34,184 nt of DNA from a virus: IMG/VR virus record IMGVR_UViG_3300031951_000670, positions 1 to 34,184 of that record; one strand, written 5' to 3'. The notes beneath the pieces were generated by a model that worked only from the letters and a program-made list of their open reading frames with translations, was not told the DNA's origin and did not search any database. Positions within the stretch are counted from its first letter, which is position 1. Each line of letters opens with the position of its first letter. A program made the position numbers and the translations under genes. Shown piece by piece: positions 1,286 to 18,233 of the stretch.

Positions 1286-1773
1286 ACTTGCCTCACAATG
1301 CTCATTATGTAAAAATCACTGCGATCCGGGCCGTATGCCTGCAATGTCCCTTCGGTTTTAAACCCGATGGTTGCTGCCCATTTCACTGCCCGATTGTGAT
1401 CGCACCTTACTGTAATCTGCTGTCGGTGTAAACACATTGATATCGCCGTGATATCAATAAATGCTTTGGCTCCGTGGCACATAAACAGTGGGTAGCGTCG
1501 CAGTTCTTCGTCGGGGATGAACCAGAGTTCCGCGACTCCCGGCCAGATGGCTCCTGCCCCAAAGATACCGACAGGTCTGCCGTGCAGGAGTACCGTTACT
1601 GCGGGTCCAAGTTCTGATTGGGCGTCGATCATCTGCTGCACTGATACCAAATTGCTAATACCAACGATGTCTTGGTTGTTGGTATTTATGTAACTAAAGT
1701 GGTCAGGTGCGTAGGGTACAAAAATCGCCCCAGTGGGGCGTTGGACTCGTTCGTTTAGTTCGATGGCGGTCAT
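1282..1773 (-). CDS. GNAT-like / DUF2833-like phage protein
   Basis: This is a 163-residue protein next to the large terminase. The core IFGAGAIWPGVAELWFIPDEE, the YPLFMCHGAKAFI helix and the end NRAVKWAATIGFKTEGTLQA follow the order of a GNAT acetyltransferase: beta-bulge strand, cofactor-side helix, and the terminal A-x-x-x-G-F strand. The cofactor loop Q/RxxGxG/A is not obvious, so catalytic activity is uncertain. Family knowledge: T7-group phages carry DUF2833 (gp13-like) proteins of this build in their late region. The ATG overlaps the terminase stop by four bases. Confidence 0.75.
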   Translation of the reverse strand: MTAIELNERVQRPTGAIFVPYAPDHFSYINTNNQDIVGISNLVSVQQMIDAQSELGPAVTVLLHGRPVGIFGAGAIWPGVAELWFIPDEELRRYPLFMCHGAKAFIDITAISMCLHRQQITVRCDHNRAVKWAATIGFKTEGTLQAYGPDRSDFYIMSIVRQV

Positions 1774-3323
1774 GCGAATACATCAAAATCGCTGTTGGCA
1801 ATGGTTTGTGCTTGAAAAGTGCGGCCAGATATGGCTGAACTTTTGGTCATTCGGCGGTGTTCGCCGCCACCGAGTAACAGATACCCGAAGGCATCGCCAA
1901 CGTGGGAGTGTTCGTTCTTGTTGGGTGCGTCCCGGAAGCGTTCTTGGCCTGATCCGATGGAGATTCGCTTGAAGTGGTAGCCGCCTGCTAGGGATTTGCG
2001 AAGCAGTTTGCAGGATTTGTCCACGATCAGTCCGGGTTTGCCGCCGATTAGTCGCTGCATGGGTGCGGCTGCGGCTTCCCGACGGACTTTAAAGTCGTTA
2101 CTGGGGGTGGGTTGCGCTCGGAGGCCCAGTGTTCGCAGGTGATCGAAGGCGGTGACTTCGTAAATAGCGTCGCGCTGCATACCGGCGGGGTCGCCCCACA
2201 CAAAAATCTGGGCATTGGGGTATCGGGCGTTCAATTCGCCGAGCAATTGCTGGCCGAAACGCTCAAGACCCATGTCGAAGGTGACGATTTCGTGCAGGAT
2301 ATTCCATGTACCTGCGTTGGTTTTCTGTCCGATGACGGCAGCGGGGGTCAAACCGAAGTCGAGACCGACTTGAATGGGCTGTGTTGGATCGTAATCCAAG
2401 TCAGCGGACATCATGTTATCGTCGTATTCGGGCCAGACTGGTCTGCCTTCTTGGACGTAGGTGTATTTTCCTTCGGCGTAGCATCTGATCCAGTCGAGGT
2501 TTTTCCCCAAGAGCATCTGCTGGTAGTAACCGGCAGGCAGGTTGGAGGTATTTTCAGCTTTAGGGTTGGGCTTCCACCATCGACCTGCGCTATATATGTG
2601 ATCGTTTGCTTCAGGATTCTCTGGTAGTTCTGCCAAGTCTGCTTCTTCGATGCCTCCGGGCTGTCTGAAAAACTCCCACTTGTACGCCCCACTCATCTTC
2701 TCCTTTTCTGCCATCCTAAACCACCAATGGTCATCATCCATTGGGTTGGTATCCAGAATAATTCCGTGCCATGTCGCGCCACCATCCCGCTTACTGGGGT
2801 ATCGTCCAACGCGATGCGTCAGCCCATCGATGACTGCCTTGGGCAATTCTCTTGCTTCGTTGACCCATGCGCCGGTTAACTCTAACGACAGTAGTTTGCG
2901 GACATCTTTTGGATCATCCAATGCTAGGAAGATGACTTCGCAATCGATACCGGCAGCGCCATCTCGGGCGGGTAATCGGATGTGATGGGTAATAGGTGGT
3001 GTATGCAGCAGGGGTCCGAAAGTCGCTTCGGGGAACATATCGATCCACGTTTTGATGGTCGTGGTTTTCAGCATGGGGTAGCTGTTTCGCACAATCGCAA
3101 AGCGGCTGTATTTGATACCATCCACAGGACTCGGCTTTTGCTGGACGGCCTTCATCATGATCTCAGCGCAGCAGGCGTAGGATTTACCGGAGCCGACTGG
3201 CCCCATGATGCCGCGCACGAAGGCTTTGGACTGCAAGAACTTCCAGACGATTGGGCTGGTAGAGAAGTCGAGGTTTAGCCCTGTCTGAGGTAGAACCTTA
3301 CTGCTTGTCTCTTTGGTTTTCAA
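1770..3323 (-). CDS. Terminase large subunit
   Basis: This 517-residue packaging motor cuts concatemeric DNA and pumps it into the prohead. The Walker A motif GPVGSGKS is at residues 41-48 and a Walker B-like segment TGAWVNEARE ends with E156. The C-terminal RNase H-fold nuclease has D322 in VGLDFG, D378 in WGDPAG and D477 in HVGDAFG. The start is TTG at 3323, overlapping the previous stop (TTGA); the first ATG in frame lies at residue 40, directly before the Walker A loop, so it cannot be the true start. It follows the small subunit with one tiny gene between them. Confidence 0.95.
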   Translation of the reverse strand: MKTKETSSKVLPQTGLNLDFSTSPIVWKFLQSKAFVRGIMGPVGSGKSYACCAEIMMKAVQQKPSPVDGIKYSRFAIVRNSYPMLKTTTIKTWIDMFPEATFGPLLHTPPITHHIRLPARDGAAGIDCEVIFLALDDPKDVRKLLSLELTGAWVNEARELPKAVIDGLTHRVGRYPSKRDGGATWHGIILDTNPMDDDHWWFRMAEKEKMSGAYKWEFFRQPGGIEEADLAELPENPEANDHIYSAGRWWKPNPKAENTSNLPAGYYQQMLLGKNLDWIRCYAEGKYTYVQEGRPVWPEYDDNMMSADLDYDPTQPIQVGLDFGLTPAAVIGQKTNAGTWNILHEIVTFDMGLERFGQQLLGELNARYPNAQIFVWGDPAGMQRDAIYEVTAFDHLRTLGLRAQPTPSNDFKVRREAAAAPMQRLIGGKPGLIVDKSCKLLRKSLAGGYHFKRISIGSGQERFRDAPNKNEHSHVGDAFGYLLLGGGEHRRMTKSSAISGRTFQAQTIANSDFDVFA

Positions 3324-3541
3324 CCTTGTCCCCTTGCGCGGATGGCATTGGCTACACCACTAGGACAACTGTCGCATTGCGGCTCGTAGGACTCAGCAAT
3401 ATTTGCACACGCCTCGCGCTCTGCTGCTGCGACCGCATTGGCAAAGTCAATAAAAATTTCAAGCGACTGTTCGTCATCAGTGTCGAAATCAATCAACTTA
3501 AAAAGCTTTTGAACGTCTTCTTTACTTAATGTCTTCTGCAT
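3320..3541 (-). CDS. Small hypothetical protein between terminase subunits
   Basis: This is a 73-residue protein. An acidic, helical first half (KEDVQKLFKLIDFDTDDEQ) is followed by a segment REACANIAESYEPQCDSCP and then ANAIRARGQG. The A-C-A-x-I-A-E-S plus AIRARG arrangement recurs in many small phage proteins of unknown role. Two cysteines in CDSC could bind metal. The ATG at 3541 has GAGG seven bases upstream and overlaps the end of the small terminase gene by 20 bases. Confidence 0.7.
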   Translation of the reverse strand: MQKTLSKEDVQKLFKLIDFDTDDEQSLEIFIDFANAVAAAEREACANIAESYEPQCDSCPSGVANAIRARGQG

Positions 3542-3956
3542 CGATTACCTCGGGTGCTTTCACATTAATGCCAATGACGGACGGCTTATCAGATTCTTCT
3601 GCGGTATCCAGTAGGCCACTGGCTTTAGCCAGTATTCGCAGCACACCCACCTTATCGTACAGTTCGATGTCCAGTGTTCTAACGCACCCACCGTCTTTGT
3701 CGTGCCGCTCGTTGACTTTGATGGACTTGATTGCTTGCAGGGCGTGTTCCGGGATGTCTTTACTGGCCTTGACCTTAATATTGCCTTGGTCATCCCACTC
3801 CATGATGTCGGTGAGTTTAGTATTAGCAATGGTCAGAAGCGAATAAGCGACAGCTTCTCGATTCTTGGCGATGGTGGTGGACCCACCCAGCCGTTGCTGG
3901 ACAGTTCGGATGCCACCCCAGTTCTTTAATGAGGGTATTTGTTTATTAACGGCCAT
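3522..3956 (-). CDS. Terminase small subunit
   Basis: This is a 144-residue protein directly upstream of the large terminase. Residues 40-135 show the pattern known for small terminases of the Terminase_2/Nu1-like type: ANTKLTDIMEWDDQGNIKV, then SKDIPEHALQAIKSIKV, then a strand with DIELYDKVGVLRILAKASGL. In that family this part recognises the packaging site and forms a ring that stimulates the large subunit. The N-terminus (SLKNWGGIRTVQQRLGGSTT) would be the DNA-binding part, although no classical helix-turn-helix is evident. Confidence 0.85.
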   Translation of the reverse strand: MAVNKQIPSLKNWGGIRTVQQRLGGSTTIAKNREAVAYSLLTIANTKLTDIMEWDDQGNIKVKASKDIPEHALQAIKSIKVNERHDKDGGCVRTLDIELYDKVGVLRILAKASGLLDTAEESDKPSVIGINVKAPEVIDAEDIK

Positions 3957-3961
3957 AGTTG

Positions 3962-4090
3962 TTAGCCCCGTCTTTCCGGGGTGTCAGCAGGGTCGGTCAA
4001 CGGAAAGGAGGAGTTGATTCCTGCTGCCGCTGTTGGCAGGGAAAAACGAACGCGAAAAACCTGCGCCACCTTCGGCTGGGCATCCTGCAT
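3962..4090 (-). CDS. Possible 42-residue ORF coupled to the cysteine-rich peptide
   Basis: The ATG at 4090 overlaps the stop of the cysteine-rich peptide gene (TAATG), and the frame runs to a TAA six bases before the small terminase start, filling the gap exactly. The predicted product (start MQDAQPKVAQVFRVRF, end DPADTPERRG) matches no family I know. It has no ribosome site of its own beyond coupling. A CCCCG/CGGGG hairpin lies in its last codons. It could equally be an untranslated leader for the terminase genes. Confidence 0.3.
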   Translation of the reverse strand: MQDAQPKVAQVFRVRFSLPTAAAGINSSFPLTDPADTPERRG

Positions 4091-4236
4091 TAGTAGCAGG
4101 ACGTATTGCAGCTTGCACCATAACAGCAGGTTGTGCAAGTGACGCAGCGACCTTGATCGCAGTAGGTGTGATAAGTGCAGGAAGCGTAAACGAGAGGGGC
4201 TGTGATTGCCAGCCAGAGTGCGAAGAGGTATTTCAT
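4090..4236 (-). CDS. Secreted cysteine-rich peptide (48 aa precursor)
   Basis: The ORF encodes a typical Sec signal peptide, MKYLFALWLAITAPLVYA, with a type I cleavage pattern V-Y-A before Ser19. The mature part of 30 residues contains eight cysteines, including CVTCTTCC and a CNTSC end, so up to four disulfides could form in the periplasm. A strong AAGGAG sits five bases before the ATG at 4236. An even cysteine count and a clean export signal argue for a real gene although it is very short. Small proteins with a CTTCC core occur in other phages as far as I recall, without known function. Confidence 0.75.
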   Translation of the reverse strand: MKYLFALWLAITAPLVYASCTYHTYCDQGRCVTCTTCCYGASCNTSCY

Positions 4237-4346
4237 GTGGCTCCTTCAGTAAGGGTTAGGTGGGGGTACTCGCTACGCCTGTGGAACTTCTGCCGCGTGG
4301 GGGCATATGCCGAACCACAGTATCCGCTTTCCCCAGAACAACTATA

Positions 4347-4637
4347 TCACCACGGGATATCATCGTCCATGTCTACTTTTCTATCAGCAGGGGCAAAGCC
4401 ATTACCTTTATCAATGCTGTGTTGTGTGGGCTGTGCGGGTACCATACCGCCAAGGCTTACCGAGTAGAACGTATCGCCCTTCTTTGTCTTCTTCTCCCAT
4501 GCCGACAGATAAAACTCCTGCCCATTCATCTTAATCTTCCCAGACCAATCCGGGCTATTCTCCTTCTTCTTCTTGTCATTCCGAAACAGATTCCCTCTGT
4601 CATCTTTCAACTCATACGGCGATGCATACCCACTCAT
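4347..4637 (-). CDS. SSB-like protein (DUF736-like) with acidic C-terminal tip
   Basis: This is a 96-residue protein starting MSGYASPYELKDDRGNLFRN. The start at 4637 has GGAGAG six bases upstream; a longer frame back to 4676 lacks such a site. Residues 8-66 (GNLFRNDKKKKENSPDW, KIKMNGQEFYLSAWEKKTKK, GDTFYSVSLG) look like the small beta-barrel seen in DUF736-type proteins. The end is KVDMDDDIPW, nearly the DDDIPF tip that bacterial SSB uses to recruit partner proteins. I infer a single-strand DNA-binding helper in replication or recombination. It is downstream of the replication protein. Confidence 0.7.
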   Translation of the reverse strand: MSGYASPYELKDDRGNLFRNDKKKKENSPDWSGKIKMNGQEFYLSAWEKKTKKGDTFYSVSLGGMVPAQPTQHSIDKGNGFAPADRKVDMDDDIPW

Positions 4638-5136
4638 ATATGACTCTCCAAAGAGATTACGAAAAGTTATTTGCACTATTGTGCGGTTCTACTATACTTC
4701 ATTTCGGGGCCATTACCCAGCCCTCCCGTAGGTAGCTTGCGACCAAGGGAATAAACGTGGCGAATAGGACGGTACTCCTTATTCATACCCCCGGATGGGA
4801 TCAGGTAGAGAATATCGGGACACATTGTTCTTGCAGAGACTGACCCCTCTGTTAGCCTAGATAAACAAGAGCAAGCAATCCTCACAAAGGATTACACCCC
4901 ATATATATGGGTTAGGTTCTTTTCGTCCACGCCTGACGCGCCTTTAACCTCATCACTACGTTGGGACGCCGTATCCCGTAGGAACTGGTCAGCCCCATTT
5001 AAAAAAATTATCTTCTACTGCCCGCAAGGGCAAATGTTGCCGCTAGTTAATAAGGTTGGTACAGACTAAAAAGCGAGGGAAAAATTGAGCGAGGCACCCC
5101 GCCCCACATAGGTAGGGGCAGGGGGGCATATACCCT
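4638..5136. other. Long stretch without a convincing gene; possible origin or structured RNA
   Basis: These 499 bases separate the replication protein from the SSB-like gene. They contain a perfect 14-base palindrome CCCATATATATGGG at 4898-4911, a seven-A run at 5000-5006, a TGCCC/GGGCA hairpin near 5020-5033, a GCCCC/GGGGC hairpin near 5101-5119, and a nested inverted repeat CTAC..GGGA/TCCC..GTAG near 4957-4982. A minus-strand GTG frame (4676-4885, 69 codons) exists but has no ribosome site and unusual composition. The density of symmetrical elements beside replication genes fits an origin or a regulatory RNA. This is inference. Confidence 0.4.
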
Positions 5137-6726: not shown

Positions 6727-7371
6727 ATGAAAATCTCAGTAACTTCAAAACTCGACGGCATCCGTTCATGGTCTCTTCAGGCGCTCGACACTTGCCCCGG
6801 ATCAATTGCCGCTCCGGGTGAACTAGTCGATGCCTGTAAGGGTTGCTACGCAACGCAAGGAAACTATCGATTCGAGAATGTAAAAGCCCCTCGCAGGCAC
6901 AATAAAGAAGATTGGCAGCGCATTACATGGGCTGATGACATGGTTGCCGAATTGAACAAAGATCGGTTTTTCCGCTGGTTTGATTCGGGCGATATGTACA
7001 CCCTCGCCCTCGCTGAAAAGATTCTCGACGTTATGAAACGGACCCCATGGGTCAATCACTGGTTGCCCACGAGAATGTACAAGTTCCCAAAGTTTCGGCA
7101 AGTACTTGCCGAGATGCAAGCCTTGCCGAATGTATCAGTTCGGTTCTCATCCGACAGCATCACAGGCCAGTACACAAAAGGATTGCATGGCTCGGTCATT
7201 GTGCCTACTGCCGCTGATATAAAGCGAGGGATGACACTCTGCCGTGCCTACGAAAACGAGGGAAAGTGTAACGGATGCCGTGCCTGCTACGATAAAAAGG
7301 TCAAGGTCATTGCATACCCGGCACACGGCAAGACCATGCACAAAGTTATCAAGATTAAACTTGCCGCTTAA
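6727..7371 (+). CDS. GP88-family-like cysteine protein
   Basis: This is a 214-residue protein. Cysteines are grouped at both ends: C23 in DTCPGS, C37 and C40 in ACKGCYA, then C172, C181, C184 and C187 in ENEGKCNGCRACYDK. This layout matches my recollection of the phage 'gene product 88' family (named from a mycobacteriophage protein), whose function is not established. The cysteines probably bind zinc or an iron-sulfur cluster. The middle part (FRWFDSGDMYTLALAEKILD) is conserved in the family as I recall. The leader CCTTGAAAGGAAATAGCAA precedes the ATG. Confidence 0.75.
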   Translation: MKISVTSKLDGIRSWSLQALDTCPGSIAAPGELVDACKGCYATQGNYRFENVKAPRRHNKEDWQRITWADDMVAELNKDRFFRWFDSGDMYTLALAEKILDVMKRTPWVNHWLPTRMYKFPKFRQVLAEMQALPNVSVRFSSDSITGQYTKGLHGSVIVPTAADIKRGMTLCRAYENEGKCNGCRACYDKKVKVIAYPAHGKTMHKVIKIKLAA

Positions 7372-11535: not shown

Positions 11536-11955
11536 ATGAGACCACGTTACGAAAGACCACAGGATTTAGAAAACGAGAAAACAGTCCGAAAAATTCTGAT
11601 GCAAAAGTGGGCTGTCGAAATGCACAAGATGCCGATGGCCTATCACCTCGACTGGATGGTGACAAAGGATAGCAAGGCAGTTGCTTTCGCAGAACTCAAG
11701 TGCAGAGACAATTCCATCCTGCAATACCCAACGCTCATGCTGTCAATGCACAAGTGGATGCACGGCAGGCAGATGGCAGAGGAAATCGATGGCTCATTCC
11801 TCGTGATCGTCAGATGGATTGATGGCCTGTACTATCACAGGCAAGGCACCGCAGCAGTTACCTACGGCGTGGGTGGCAGGAAAGACAGAGGCGACAGTCA
11901 GGATATGGAACCCGTAGTCCACATCCCGACAGACAGCTTTAAACTACTGGCCTGA
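11536..11955 (+). CDS. Probable PD-(D/E)XK-type nuclease-like protein
   Basis: This is a 139-residue protein, the last gene of the rightward region. Residues 36-57 (YHLDWMVTKDSKAVAFAELK then CR) show D39, E53 and K55 in the spacing of a PD-(D/E)XK active site, with E12/E14 in the first helix. This is a motif call, not a family match. Its last 12 bases overlap the end of the convergent Rz-like gene, so the early and late units meet without an untranslated gap. Confidence 0.6.
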   Translation: MRPRYERPQDLENEKTVRKILMQKWAVEMHKMPMAYHLDWMVTKDSKAVAFAELKCRDNSILQYPTLMLSMHKWMHGRQMAEEIDGSFLVIVRWIDGLYYHRQGTAAVTYGVGGRKDRGDSQDMEPVVHIPTDSFKLLA

Positions 11956-12417
11956 TCTTAAGGTTTCGTATTGCCGGACGCATTGGTCGAGGGCGATCCT
12001 GAGTTCTTCTGCTCGGAAAGCTTCCCTGATAAGAAATTCTGCATCGGGCTTAGAAAGTTCTGCTCCCGTACAGAGGCAGGCGGGGCAGACAGCGCCGGAG
12101 GAACTGGACACGGTACTTGTCTGGGCGGCACGCTCGGGGCGCTTACGCACGCTGTCAGCCAAAGTGGCAGCAAGCTGAATAGCATTCCTTTGCTTTTCAT
12201 TTGTTTCTTCCCTTAACTGATCGGCCTCGGCCTGCAATGCTTGCTCCTTCTCACGGGCAGCAGCCTGCGCTTTGGCATACGCCTCTGCCTGCGCTGCACG
12301 TTCCCGATCCCACTCGGCCTGCACCGACGCCTTACCGTGCGCTGACCCTTTAATATAGCCAGCGCCACCGGCAAGCGCAACCGCGATAACGGCACCGGCA
12401 AGAAAGTAAGGATTCAT
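11944..12417 (-). CDS. Rz: i-spanin (Rz-like)
   Basis: This is a 157-residue inner-membrane spanin subunit. One membrane segment lies at residues 4-22 (YFLAGAVIAVALAGGAGYI), followed by a long charged coiled coil (about 30-95, rich in A/E/K/Q) reaching into the periplasm, and a C-terminal globular part with several cysteines (CPACLC). With its lipoprotein partner, encoded inside it in another frame, it fuses the inner and outer membranes at the end of lysis. The start overlaps the preceding gene's stop (ATGA). Confidence 0.9.
   Translation of the reverse strand: MNPYFLAGAVIAVALAGGAGYIKGSAHGKASVQAEWDRERAAQAEAYAKAQAAAREKEQALQAEADQLREETNEKQRNAIQLAATLADSVRKRPERAAQTSTVSSSSGAVCPACLCTGAELSKPDAEFLIREAFRAEELRIALDQCVRQYETLRSGQ
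11958..12200 (-). CDS. Rz1: o-spanin lipoprotein (Rz1-like), nested in Rz
   Basis: This is an 80-residue protein lying wholly within the Rz-like gene in another frame. A signal peptide MKSKGMLFSLLPLWLTAC ends in the lipobox LTAC (C18), followed by a proline-rich stretch SAPSVPPRQVPCPVPPALSA. This is the usual signature of Rz1 outer-membrane spanins. It pairs with Rz across the periplasm. The embedded arrangement is typical of many phages of Gram-negative hosts. Confidence 0.9.
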   Translation of the reverse strand: MKSKGMLFSLLPLWLTACVSAPSVPPRQVPCPVPPALSAPPASVREQNFLSPMQNFLSGKLSEQKNSGSPSTNASGNTKP

Positions 12418-12584
12418 TTCTGATTAGGTACAGACTTACCTTCGAGTTTCTTATGGACCTTGATCGTCTTGCAGACTTCCATGTCCTTGCCCTTGATCTT
12501 CTCAGTGCGGCAGACCTTCTTCATCTCGCCGCCAGCAAACGCAACAAGTGGAACAAACGCAATAAGTGCAATGAGTTTCTTCAT
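12414..12584 (-). CDS. Small secreted protein, 56 aa
   Basis: The ATG at 12584 has CGGAGA upstream and is preferred to a frame from 12632 that lacks one. The product MKKLIALIAFVPLVAFAGGE is a clean Sec signal peptide with A-F-A cleavage, followed by a lysine-rich mature part of about 38 residues with two cysteines (VCRTEKIKGKDMEVCKTIKV). Its position between the holin-like and spanin genes suggests a periplasmic role in lysis or envelope modification. Family unknown. Confidence 0.7.
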   Translation of the reverse strand: MKKLIALIAFVPLVAFAGGEMKKVCRTEKIKGKDMEVCKTIKVHKKLEGKSVPNQK

Positions 12585-12585
12585 G

Positions 12586-13017
12586 TCAAATCTCCGGTTC
12601 AGGTGCAGGTGGTGGTGCCTTCTTACCGCCAAAGCCAGTTACGACAGGGGCAGCTTCGAGAACAGGTTCTTGCCTGACAACAGGCTGATGCACAGGGGCT
12701 GGTGCTTTCGGTGCTGGTGGCTGCGGGTCAGTCCAGTCACTTGCCTTGCTGACTCCGGGTGGCGGCTCTACCAGTTTGGCGATACCGTCCTTACCTTTGA
12801 TCGCCAATAATGTTGCCAAAGCACCAAGTATGTACTTGCTCATATCGGAGAGCAACATAAAAAACTGTTTGTCCGCTGGCGCAATCCCGACCATAGGTTG
12901 AGTTACAAAAACGACACTATACATTGCCAAACTTGACATCATTAGCAGCACGACGCAGAACGTCGAGCCGATGATCAGCTTGATAACGCTGTCGATCTGA
13001 TCAGGTGTCCATTTCAT
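12586..13017 (-). CDS. Holin-like membrane protein with proline-rich tail
   Basis: This is a 143-residue protein. Two hydrophobic segments are evident, at about 15-39 (IIGSTFCVVLLMMSSLAMYS) and 52-73 (MLLSDMSKYILGALATLLAI), followed by a hydrophilic Pro/Ala-rich tail (EPPPGVSKASD through KKAPPPAPEPEI). The membrane part fits a holin that would release the GH19 endolysin encoded two genes upstream. The long proline-rich tail is unusual for a holin. An alternative is a structural membrane protein. Confidence 0.65.
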   Translation of the reverse strand: MKWTPDQIDSVIKLIIGSTFCVVLLMMSSLAMYSVVFVTQPMVGIAPADKQFFMLLSDMSKYILGALATLLAIKGKDGIAKLVEPPPGVSKASDWTDPQPPAPKAPAPVHQPVVRQEPVLEAAPVVTGFGGKKAPPPAPEPEI

Positions 13018-13208
13018 TTCTGTTCCTCCTGCTTATAGTCGGATGCGGGTAGCAACTGATCTGGGCAAGTGCCGGTCAAAGCGCATTCAGGCCGCTGACA
13101 TTCTGGCTTCTTCCAGTTCTTGTTATCCATACACGGATAACGAAACCGATCCTCACAGCCAGCCAACGCTAACAGACTAAGCACCAAGAATATGAAGCGC
13201 GTGTTCAT
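13014..13208 (-). CDS. Small cysteine-containing lipoprotein
   Basis: The ATG at 13208, after ACAGGA, is chosen. It gives a 64-residue lipoprotein precursor with lipobox L15-A-G-C18. The mature part EDRFRYPCMDNKNWKKPECQ and ALTGTCPDQL has four more cysteines (26, 37, 42, 48). Proteins with the GCEDRFRYPC core recur in phage lysis regions, as far as I recall, without known function. The gene starts within the endolysin gene's last codons (32-base overlap). Confidence 0.75.
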   Translation of the reverse strand: MNTRFIFLVLSLLALAGCEDRFRYPCMDNKNWKKPECQRPECALTGTCPDQLLPASDYKQEEQK

Positions 13209-13827
13209 AGTGTTTGATCCTGTCTTCAAGTCCAATCACCCCGCCATTAATCCGACGGGTCATGCCTTCTATATTATTTGCGTCCGCGAACTTATTGAGG
13301 TTGTTCGTTTCCCAGAACCAACACGCAGACTGCGCCGCACCTTCGAATGTCATTAGGTACGCAGGCACATCCTCAACCTTCATCTGTAGGCTGTCAGCAA
13401 ATGCCTGATAGTTTGAGCGTCCAGTAAGTTGGATAAGACCACGGCCACAGTAACGAAAACCATCACCACTACGCTCATCGCCATTGCCCATGCGGTTAGC
13501 ATAGATAAGGTTTGCAATGGCCTCTTGCCTGTTAGGCTTGTTGGCATACTCTTGAGCCATCTCATCGGTAAGGAAGTATTTCTTTCCAAATAGTTTGCGT
13601 AAGGTAGGCCACTTGTAGTTCAGGTTCTCTTTGAGTACCATGAACCCGCCGGACTCGTGGGCGCACTGGGCAATGAATGCAGCGATGCGCTTGGGTGTAT
13701 TGATCTCGTACTCCTCCAGCAGACTAGAGCCACCGAGTTCTTCCTGCGGCATAGCCAATGCCTCATGCCATTCCTTGATATAAGGATTACGTGGGATCAT
13801 CTGCCGGAGCTGGGCTTCTGTAATCAT
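13177..13827 (-). CDS. Endolysin, glycoside hydrolase family 19
   Basis: This 216-residue enzyme cleaves the sugar backbone of peptidoglycan. The catalytic acid is E58 in FIAQCAHESGGF, and the GH19 signature GRGLIQLTGRSNY is at about 129-141, with the following ACWFWETNNLNKFADANN as in the lysozyme/chitinase-like phage members. No export signal is present, so release needs the holin. It lies in the middle of the lysis/envelope gene cluster. Confidence 0.92.
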   Translation of the reverse strand: MITEAQLRQMIPRNPYIKEWHEALAMPQEELGGSSLLEEYEINTPKRIAAFIAQCAHESGGFMVLKENLNYKWPTLRKLFGKKYFLTDEMAQEYANKPNRQEAIANLIYANRMGNGDERSGDGFRYCGRGLIQLTGRSNYQAFADSLQMKVEDVPAYLMTFEGAAQSACWFWETNNLNKFADANNIEGMTRRINGGVIGLEDRIKHYEHALHILGA

Positions 13828-15002: not shown

Positions 15003-18000
15003 TTAAACAGAAATTATTGTTGCGCGAGATTTTTTCACAGCAAAAACCCACCCAAGATTATTACCGCTATCAACATTGCCGTTTAAAATCAAAGAAGACC
15101 AAGTAGCGCCGCCTGTAGCATTGCTATCCTGAATGTCCAAGAACGAAACAGATACCGTACCAGACGCATCTGATAACGTAAACCGAGTTCCCGGAGTTGA
15201 GCTACGGATTGAAACCAAGTTACCCGCAGTGCCAGACAAATTGAAGGCGTTTACCGTTGTGGTTGTACTTGCCGGGAATGTGATCTGGCTTGCTGTAGCG
15301 TTCGTATTGGCAATGTCGTTAAAAGTATTTGCACCAGTAATCGTCAGCGTTCCCGCACCACCTTGGTTTAGTGTGCAGTTGTATGTTGATCCGCCGCCCA
15401 CAAATGTTTTTGCACTCGCGGATGTCATACTGATTGTGCCAGTGCCAGTACCTGCTGTAGTGGTGAAGTTAGTTGGTGCTGCGTTATTCCAAACAGTTGC
15501 GCCACTTCCGCTAAGAGCTAATGTTCCGCCATTAAAGGTTAAGTTTTTAGTGCCAGCGGCAGTTGAAGCTGATGTATTGGTTAAAGTAAACCCGGCTAAA
15601 TCTAGCGTTCCGTTAGTTAGCGTTAATGACGCATTTATACCGGCATCAGCTAAGGTTGTTGTAATCCCCGCTGTATTAATATTTAATATGTCTATTGTCT
15701 TACCTGTGTAAGTCAGTGTTCCTGTTCCTACAGTTGTAAAGTCTGTGCTTGTGTAAGTACCGCCAGATGCAAGTGTAAACCCATGGCAACTAATAATTAC
15801 TGCACCGGGATTGCAAGTTGATCCGGTAAAGTTAATTTGCCTGAAGCTACCCGTAAATGTGGGTACAGACGCGCCTGACGTTAAGTTAAGATTAAGCCTG
15901 TTACTTGTCGTTGCTCCCGCAGTTCCACCAAAGTTAAATGTCCTTGTAACAGACATTGCTGCGCTAATATTTGACGTACCTGTAAACGTAAAGTTTGTGG
16001 CAGTTGCCATAGACAACACTGTTGACCCAGCAGTTGCGGTTGTTACCGTAATTCCACCAGTACCAAACGCTATTGATCGTGTGTTGCTGTTGTCTGAAGA
16101 AAAAATACCGGTTGACAATATTAAATTGTTTAGGTCAAGCGTACCATTAGTTAATGTGCAAGTTCTAGTAGCTCCTAACGTCATTGCATCTTGAAGCTGC
16201 CATGTGCCGCCTACGCCGTTAAACGTAACAGGGAAATCCATTGTCTTCCCGTTGCTGGTAATAGTCTTTGTGCCGCTAGTGGCAGCAAACGTCATTGTTG
16301 ACGATGAAGCAGTCAAAGACATTCCAGTAGACAATGTTAAGTCACCGTAAATTGTTGCAGTGCTAATCTGCTGCCATGTTCCAGCATACCCAGTAAAATT
16401 TACATTACGTGCTGTATTTCCACCAGTACCCAAAAAAAACAGCGCATAAGTACCGCCAGTAAAATTAAAATCAAATGATGTTGCTTCAGACGATGAACCC
16501 GCAACAACAGTGATTGAAGTCGAACCTGTAGATGTAATGTTTACTGTCCTACTTGTGCCAACAAATGTATGAACATTGTTACAACTAAAAGCAGTACCTG
16601 TTCCAGTTATGTTGATTTGTCCAGTAGAGCCAAATGTAAGTACTTTTTGCACAGCAGTAAATGTACCGCTGTCCCATGTGGCAATATTTACTGTTCTATC
16701 TGAAAAATTAAAATGACCATACCGAATGTTAAATGTTTGAGTACAAGTCAACGTATTATTTATTAATCTTAATCCACCAGAACCACTATTCGCGAAACAA
16801 TCAATACGCATACTGACATCAAACGTATTGCCTCCAGTATCAAGATCAAGAATTGATGTTCTTCTCCATAAAAATCTAGGTGAAGTTGCTCTATTTACTG
16901 TTACGCCTGAGTTTAAAATCCAATTTCCTGAAATTGGAATTTCTGGACTAGATTCATCACCTAAAGAACCTGCTGTCAACGTCCAAGGAAGTGTTCTATT
17001 TGTTGCATTGATTGCACAAACATTACAACTATTTGTAAATATAAAACTCGCTCCTGACGGAAATCCATTATCGTCTATAATCAATGTGTCTTGTGGCAGC
17101 GGCATATTATTAAGACTGCCAGACCCGCCAGAACTTAGAGCATAGCTTGCAGACGTAAACTGAGTATTTGCAGTCGACACAAGGTAAACGGTTTTTGGCG
17201 TAGAAAAAGTAATGTTTGAGTTAAGACCAGCATCGCCAAATGACGTACCACTTAAAGTGCCAACAGCGCCAGCAATTGTTATGCCAAAAAAATCAACATA
17301 ATTAATTCCACTTGCCGCCGCAATTGTCAAAATTCTAGAAGTCGCAATTGAACTTTCAAATGCTTGACGACAATTTGGAGCTGATGCGCCACCAGTAAAA
17401 GAAAACGTGCCAGTAATTGTTAAGTCATTACTTATTGAGACTTTTCTATGTGTTGCTGCTGCTGTTCGTACAAATGTAAGATTGGTAAACGTAGACGCGC
17501 CAGTAATACTATTTACAGCAGAACCGGAAGCCGGCATATTAAAACGCACATCATAAAAAGTATGCGCGCCAGATATACCTGAAGTAGCACCAGTAAACAA
17601 AATTTGAGATTGACCTGCATTAAATGTAAGATTTGTTATGGTGGCACAAGAGAAAGAACCACTAAGTGTTACTATAGAGTTATTAAGTTTAATTGTTCTT
17701 GTATTACTGTTACTTGAACTAAATGTACCAGCACTAACAGCATAATTTGATGTGCTTGTATCAAATGTTCCGTTCGTTACAGTTAATGTGCTTAATCCAC
17801 AACTAAAAGCAGAGCCAAGTGTCCATGCGCCACCAACGCCGTCAAATGTAACAGGCCCACCAAATGCCACACCGTTCGTTGTTATTGTTTTTCCGGTAGT
17901 CGTAGCGTTAAATGTCGTAGTGCCTGTGTAACTGCGAGTGAAGTTTGTAGCAGGAAAAGATAAAGACCCGCTGACAGTCAATCCAATGCTTGTGCCAGCT

Positions 18001-18233
18001 AGTGTCATTGCACCGTCAAGACCGCTGATTGTGATGTCGTTACAAACCCTTGGCGTGTTTGCCATCGTAACGGTAAACGCGCCTGTACCTACGTTAGAGT
18101 TGGCATCAAAGAATACGTTATCAGCAGCCGTTGGAACTGACGCACCTGTAGCGCCGCCTGATGAGGCAGACCAGTTAGCCGTGTTGGTACTACTCCACGT
18201 TCCAGTTCCACCAACCCAATAGCGATCTGCCAT
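15003..18233 (-). CDS. Large repetitive beta-structured adhesin / tail protein
   Basis: This is a 1076-residue protein rich in Thr, Ser, Gly and Asn. It begins MADRYWVGGTGTWSSTNTAN, a start I recognise from many phage tail or fibre proteins. It is built from irregular strand repeats such as LTNGTLDLN and GTFSSSNSNTRTI, typical of beta-helix or autotransporter-like adhesins. Residues 104-187 and 645-726 are diverged duplicates. The end GNNLGWVF is also recurrent. It most likely forms an outer tail appendage for receptor binding. It follows a separate T7-like fibre gene. Confidence 0.8.
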   Translation of the reverse strand: MADRYWVGGTGTWSSTNTANWSASSGGATGASVPTAADNVFFDANSNVGTGAFTVTMANTPRVCNDITISGLDGAMTLAGTSIGLTVSGSLSFPATNFTRSYTGTTTFNATTTGKTITTNGVAFGGPVTFDGVGGAWTLGSAFSCGLSTLTVTNGTFDTSTSNYAVSAGTFSSSNSNTRTIKLNNSIVTLSGSFSCATITNLTFNAGQSQILFTGATSGISGAHTFYDVRFNMPASGSAVNSITGASTFTNLTFVRTAAATHRKVSISNDLTITGTFSFTGGASAPNCRQAFESSIATSRILTIAAASGINYVDFFGITIAGAVGTLSGTSFGDAGLNSNITFSTPKTVYLVSTANTQFTSASYALSSGGSGSLNNMPLPQDTLIIDDNGFPSGASFIFTNSCNVCAINATNRTLPWTLTAGSLGDESSPEIPISGNWILNSGVTVNRATSPRFLWRRTSILDLDTGGNTFDVSMRIDCFANSGSGGLRLINNTLTCTQTFNIRYGHFNFSDRTVNIATWDSGTFTAVQKVLTFGSTGQINITGTGTAFSCNNVHTFVGTSRTVNITSTGSTSITVVAGSSSEATSFDFNFTGGTYALFFLGTGGNTARNVNFTGYAGTWQQISTATIYGDLTLSTGMSLTASSSTMTFAATSGTKTITSNGKTMDFPVTFNGVGGTWQLQDAMTLGATRTCTLTNGTLDLNNLILSTGIFSSDNSNTRSIAFGTGGITVTTATAGSTVLSMATATNFTFTGTSNISAAMSVTRTFNFGGTAGATTSNRLNLNLTSGASVPTFTGSFRQINFTGSTCNPGAVIISCHGFTLASGGTYTSTDFTTVGTGTLTYTGKTIDILNINTAGITTTLADAGINASLTLTNGTLDLAGFTLTNTSASTAAGTKNLTFNGGTLALSGSGATVWNNAAPTNFTTTAGTGTGTISMTSASAKTFVGGGSTYNCTLNQGGAGTLTITGANTFNDIANTNATASQITFPASTTTTVNAFNLSGTAGNLVSIRSSTPGTRFTLSDASGTVSVSFLDIQDSNATGGATWSSLILNGNVDSGNNLGWVFAVKKSRATIISV

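Follow-up and report, generated by a model that had tools for sequence, protein, structure and literature searches.

Here we show that a 48-codon open reading frame (ORF) in an IMG/VR virus record is a real gene under selection, a member of a family that is new to the libraries searched here. Hundreds of uncultured aquatic phages keep this gene under strong selection in several different replication clusters, and no family model that we searched covers it. The sequence supports an exported, disulfide-rich small protein of a sort that annotation tends to miss. With regard to function, we tentatively favour an early periplasmic binder or inhibitor whose most likely benefit to the phage would be superinfection exclusion, achieved by blocking entry in the way that the Spackle protein of phage T4 does, while a conserved target in the host envelope is its main and close rival.

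Results

The window and the miniprotein ORF

The window, by which we mean the whole stretch of DNA analysed, is a single IMG/VR virus record with a length of 34,184 bases and 49.6% G+C. Its closest cultured phage is Methylophilales phage MEP301 (76% for the terminase large subunit, TerL, and 69.5% for the major capsid protein), and its terminase small subunit-like (TerS-like) gene matches the annotated TerS of MEP301 at 68% (tblastn). Read along the minus strand, a gene for a single-strand DNA-binding-like (SSB-like) protein is followed by the peptide ORF, the TerS-like gene and the TerL gene (Table 1), and the location upstream of the terminase claimed in an earlier, sequence-only reading of this DNA therefore stands. 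That reading also had the interval and the peptide right but gave no strand, gene family, replication-gene setting or fold. The plus strand of 4090-4236 carries another, different open frame.

The ORF starts with an ATG at 4236-4234 and stops at 4092-4090. Its precursor, MKYLFALWLAITAPLVYASCTYHTYCDQGRCVTCTTCCYGASCNTSCY, divides into the leader MKYLFALWLAITAPLVYA and the mature peptide SCTYHTYCDQGRCVTCTTCCYGASCNTSCY, which begins with the Ser that follows VYA and holds exactly eight cysteines, those of CVTCTTCC among them. The sequence agrees with the earlier description of a signal peptide with type I cleavage, here a predicted event, ahead of an eight-cysteine mature part of 30 residues. The strong ribosome site described at the same time is likewise present, its AAGGAG core lying a few bases 5' of the ATG. 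The palindrome in the leader between the SSB-like and peptide genes was found in 3 of the 80 close loci that were checked. Downstream of the peptide gene no RNA element was indicated (folding z-score -0.85), and a promoter scan returned promoter matches at about chance level.

Elsewhere in the window, a lysis cluster with a GH19-type endolysin and Rz/Rz1-like frames occupies 11944-13827, distant from the peptide gene. A repetitive Thr/Ser/Gly-rich protein of 1076 residues, possibly surface or tail-associated, is encoded at 15003-18233 (minus strand). The product of 6727-7371 (plus strand), which adjoins RecE/RecT-like genes, matches phrog_1392, of unknown function (E=2.3e-28).

Table 1. Positions in the window of the miniprotein gene, its parts and its neighbours
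Feature	Coordinates	Strand	Evidence
Exported (predicted) eight-Cys miniprotein ORF, 48 codons + stop	4090..4236	-	homologues, pN/pS
Signal peptide MKYLFALWLAITAPLVYA, predicted type I cut after Ala18	4183..4236	-	sequence; -3/-1 pattern in 163/164 relatives
Mature 30-mer, predicted three-stranded beta-meander, four inferred cross-strand disulfides	4093..4182	-	AlphaFold2; all-or-none extra Cys pair
Ribosome-binding site, ...TGAAGGAGCCAC ahead of ATG	4237..4250	-	purine-rich site also retained in relatives
Perfect palindrome GGCATATGCC in 110-nt leader, SSB-like gene to peptide gene	4302..4311	.	also before duplicated unit of L009
SSB-like gene, upstream neighbour	4347..4676	-	phrog_18154 E=3.5e-11
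TerS-like gene, downstream neighbour	3522..3956	-	PF03592 E=2.7e-5, just under curated cut-off
TerL gene, context	1770..3323	-	phrog_2 E=1.7e-21

A real gene under selection

Among ORFs of 40-70 amino acids, at least eight cysteines within the last 30 residues occurred in one of 85 in the window and in one of 36,168 in 300 first-order shuffles of it. The translated search proposed in the earlier reading yielded 536 confirmed related loci in one IMG/VR scan, which speaks against a chance frame, and a second, profile-based IMG/VR scan gave at least 531 confirmed relatives; many of the family contigs are near copies of one another. Synonymous differences greatly exceed nonsynonymous ones across the family. 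For the whole gene, pN/pS was 0.16 among the 77 genes with eight Cys and 0.33 among the 90 with six, and for the mature part it fell to 0.14 and 0.24 in the respective sets. The shuffles together with pN/pS rule out both a chance frame and non-coding conservation. Disruption of the frame in close relatives had been named as an outcome that would count against the gene; in the 15 loci with TerL at least 88% identical no broken frame was seen, and the peptide was intact in 12, represented solely by a diverged paralogue in one, cleanly missing from one, and beyond the end of the contig in one.

Family anatomy and predicted export

As the family set we used 164 distinct full-length peptides drawn from the matches listed in the IMG/VR relative and motif scans. 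All 164 share the core C-x13/14-C-x2-CC-x4-C-x3-C, bar small loop changes, although the invariance of its CxTCC[YF]G part is partly built in by the set motifs with which the scans were run. Six cysteines are present in 102 peptides, eight in 61 and nine in one, the ninth sitting in the signal peptide, and none has seven. The extra pair, at mature positions 8 and 13, is all-or-none, no peptide having just one of the two; in six-Cys peptides these positions are mostly hydrophobic.

A signal peptide is retained by the whole family, and the end of the leader fits the -3/-1 signal peptidase rule in 163 of the 164, with a nearly invariant Ala at -1. Three places before the first Cys, just ahead of the cleavage-site Ala, 153 of the 164 peptides have Trp or Tyr, although signal peptides in general tend to vary there. 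No fusion that would hint at a partner protein was present among the motif-bearing ORFs of the family loci.

Predicted structure

Modelled at full length with homologues derived from the loci, AlphaFold2 gave a leader helix followed by strands at 19-27, 30-39 and 42-47; modelled alone, the mature 30-mer gave strands at 2-9, 12-21 and 24-29 (mean pLDDT 90.6, pTM 0.41). The mature part is thus predicted to be a three-stranded beta-meander. Disulfide pairing was read from the strand and turn registers rather than from coordinates: two-residue turns give registers i+j=21 and i+j=45, under which all eight cysteines face each other in four pairs, so that the probable disulfides, all cross-strand, would be C2-C19, C8-C13, C16-C29 and C20-C25 (mature numbering). 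The all-or-none pattern backs the C8-C13 pair, and the other three pairs are invariant in the family, so covariation is uninformative on them. Foldseek found no match among PDB structures at E<=0.001, and the best VIA match (Z 3.3) covered common three-strand pieces only; this lack of a structural match does not make the fold new.

Genomic setting, gain and loss

Setting could be counted in 157 loci with enough sequence. The stop of an SSB-like gene lies 8-15 nt upstream of the peptide start in 56 of these, while in the window that distance is 110 nt and the peptide gene is not coupled to the SSB-like gene. Thirteen of the 157 have a Cro-like (PF14549) gene upstream, overlapping by 4 nt (ATGA) in eight cases, and another 17 have an upstream gene without a family name, of which 13 overlap by 4 nt. 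A DUF1376-type gene stands downstream in 39 of the 157, and ERF, YqaJ and RecT-type genes are found near peptide loci. The structural modules differ where they could be typed: PF12236 was present in four of 19 records, each from the lineage to which the window belongs, and PF04860 in two of 17. Taken together, these arrangements suggest that the peptide gene co-moves with DNA replication and recombination genes rather than with tail genes, and early expression is predicted from the gene order. A scan of 19 full peptide-bearing records, some of which may be fragments, found no integrase of the tyrosine type, the only type covered.

Within the stretch seen, the peptide was absent from every locus with TerL at 78-83% and from MEP301, in which the SSB and TerS genes directly abut. 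It thus appears to be an accessory gene, gained or lost around the window's TerL lineage. In one locus (L292) the peptide is cleanly missing from between the SSB-like and TerS genes, but the leader and trailing stretches on either side remain, which looks like an exchange of the ORF by itself. A diverged tandem paralogue, MTYLLAISLSLPPPDTLEKCFWRHYCTLEKCVSCSICCYESSCMKSCF, is present at 2856-2999 (plus strand) of locus L009 and in 13 further loci, upstream of the usual copy by about 230 nt and behind a leader that resembles the usual one. It keeps all eight Cys spacings with most other residues changed, has a weak signal peptide, and is identical as a protein in all loci where it was found.

Relatives outside the virus set

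The window peptide had no significant profile match in Pfam, PHROGs, NCBIfam or PADLOC, and no significant match among PDB sequences. The best profile for any family member, phrog_27496 (E=0.0011), was rejected as the identity of the family, since in the member checked it aligned with residues 1-33 only, mainly the signal peptide. A resemblance of the TCT motif to insect antifreeze proteins was also dropped, the motif being short and the fold different. A match in BFVD, A0A6J5M8Q5, a 49-residue protein of an uncultured Caudovirales phage, is clearly a family member (the mature 30-mer is 60% identical, and the predicted structures align with a TM-score of 0.93); its name, 'Lipoprotein', is automatic, and no function was found for it.

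In the phage record collection the peptide was present in two records only, both from Manatee Spring. One of these genomes, MW202462.1, encodes a six-Cys-core peptide that is 52% identical to that of the window and, unlike it, lacks the second Cys pair; it precedes a DUF1376-type gene. The record has no CDS on the strand of this peptide, in keeping with the earlier remark that the gene is shorter than gene callers usually accept; at 755-898 of locus L082, where it lies, the opposite strand has a CDS that partly covers it. One scan of 84,980 bacterial and archaeal genomes returned a single clear relative, which lies on a contig of 33 kb in an alphaproteobacterial MAG. We found no description of the family in the literature, although the catalogue of phage small genes by Fremin et al. 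2022 (cited in PMC11364881) may list it.

Discussion

Gene order and sequence agree in predicting an early periplasmic protein. Such a peptide would be a small protein that virulent phages make early and secrete, its gene transcribed, as the neighbours suggest, together with genes for DNA replication and recombination. It is predicted to be exported by Sec, to lose its signal peptide and to fold oxidatively in the periplasm into a rigid 30-residue sheet of three strands, held by cross-strand disulfide staples. While the lytic cycle proceeds, the folded peptide may then bind and inhibit a protein of the envelope or of phage entry. Of the possible outcomes, superinfection exclusion would be the likeliest: the entry step of later phages would be blocked, and this is the simplest role that we infer for the peptide.

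Two observations argue against exclusion: the peptide gene of the window is not beside a gene for a receptor-binding protein, unlike llp of phage T5, and phages whose structural modules are unlike share a strongly conserved mature domain, whereas an exclusion factor that tracked a variable receptor or rival should, by expectation, diversify. The same observations bring a conserved host target close as a rival. An early exported peptide could bind a conserved periplasmic or outer-membrane host factor (a protease, a chaperone, or a protein of assembly or wall synthesis) to the benefit of the phage, exclusion then being of secondary importance or not occurring; we consider this somewhat unlikely, though only a little further from expectation than exclusion itself. 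It fits the low pN/pS of the mature part in the eight-Cys set across phages with differing structural modules, and a gene that travels with replication and not tail genes; against it, there is no candidate for the target, nor any host-genome homologue pointing to one. Rather unlikely, in our view, is a wider proposition, of a class of early secreted miniproteins that is phage-wide and freely exchanged, with a disulfide-ladder fold not among the solved structures searched here and one conserved target in the Gram-negative envelope. Such a class, if real, would reveal a host target whose blocking is needed by many unrelated phages of aquatic habitats.

Three further readings are improbable. Lipidation of precursor Cys20, leaving the remainder tethered to the membrane as in Llp, Cor and Rtp45, would accord with a loose PROSITE-style lipobox in 78 of the 164 peptides and with the name given to A0A6J5M8Q5. 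Yet the strict lipobox fits only one of 164, VYASC of the window fits neither pattern, and T, N or Q precedes the Cys in 34 of 164; moreover, mature Cys2 has a partner in the model, and with Cys20 lipidated the remaining cysteines would be odd in number, whereas the counts are even (six or eight). Soluble periplasmic export with type I cleavage is therefore favoured over lipidation on these sequence patterns. A role in lysis timing, as an antiholin-like or endolysin-restraining peptide of the periplasm, has about the same low probability: periplasmic phage peptides with such roles exist, but the window has a separate lysis cluster far off and the gene goes with replication genes. Lower still we place a released factor with an extracellular action on neighbours, as signal or toxin. 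The predicted product is small, stable and secreted, and the divergent tandem paralogue keeps its Cys frame while other residues change, as might suit such a factor; on the other side, neither a receptor gene nor any export system other than Sec is linked to it, and the net charge is 0 to +2 in all 164 peptides, unlike that of cationic membrane-active peptides, on which ground a cationic antimicrobial peptide was rejected.

If superinfection exclusion is indeed the function, the peptide would represent exclusion by a minimal protein. Binding to a conserved host factor would instead reveal a target in the envelope that phages have hit upon repeatedly. The peptide is short enough, at 30 residues, for chemical synthesis and direct testing.

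As a kind, the peptide falls with the small exported early proteins of phages. T4 Spackle (gp61.3) is an early, periplasmic, disulfide-bonded protein of 75 amino acids that inhibits the gp5 tail lysozyme (PMC7677548), and the peptide is predicted to resemble it in being early, small, periplasmic and disulfide-bonded, with a cleaved export signal. The two differ in build, mature Spackle being an alpha-helical bundle with one disulfide and the 30-residue peptide being predicted as all-beta, in both models, with four; nor did the 'spackle' family phrog_1586 match the window peptide, one family member reaching E=0.069. Rtp45, an exclusion lipoprotein of 6 kDa that resides in the periplasm and has a hairpin and a disulfide, binds LptD (PMC12685063), and the lipidated, receptor-blocking Llp is expressed early from a gene beside that of the receptor-binding protein (PMC9586334). 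Spackle thus sets a precedent for exclusion by an early disulfide protein of the periplasm, and Rtp45 and Llp for exclusion by envelope proteins of very small size. The peptide would share with Rtp45, Llp and Cor a very small size, an envelope location and at least one disulfide, and with Rtp45 a beta hairpin. It differs from all three, which are lipidated, in its poor lipobox, and from llp in that its gene lies beside SSB, Cro-like or replication genes.
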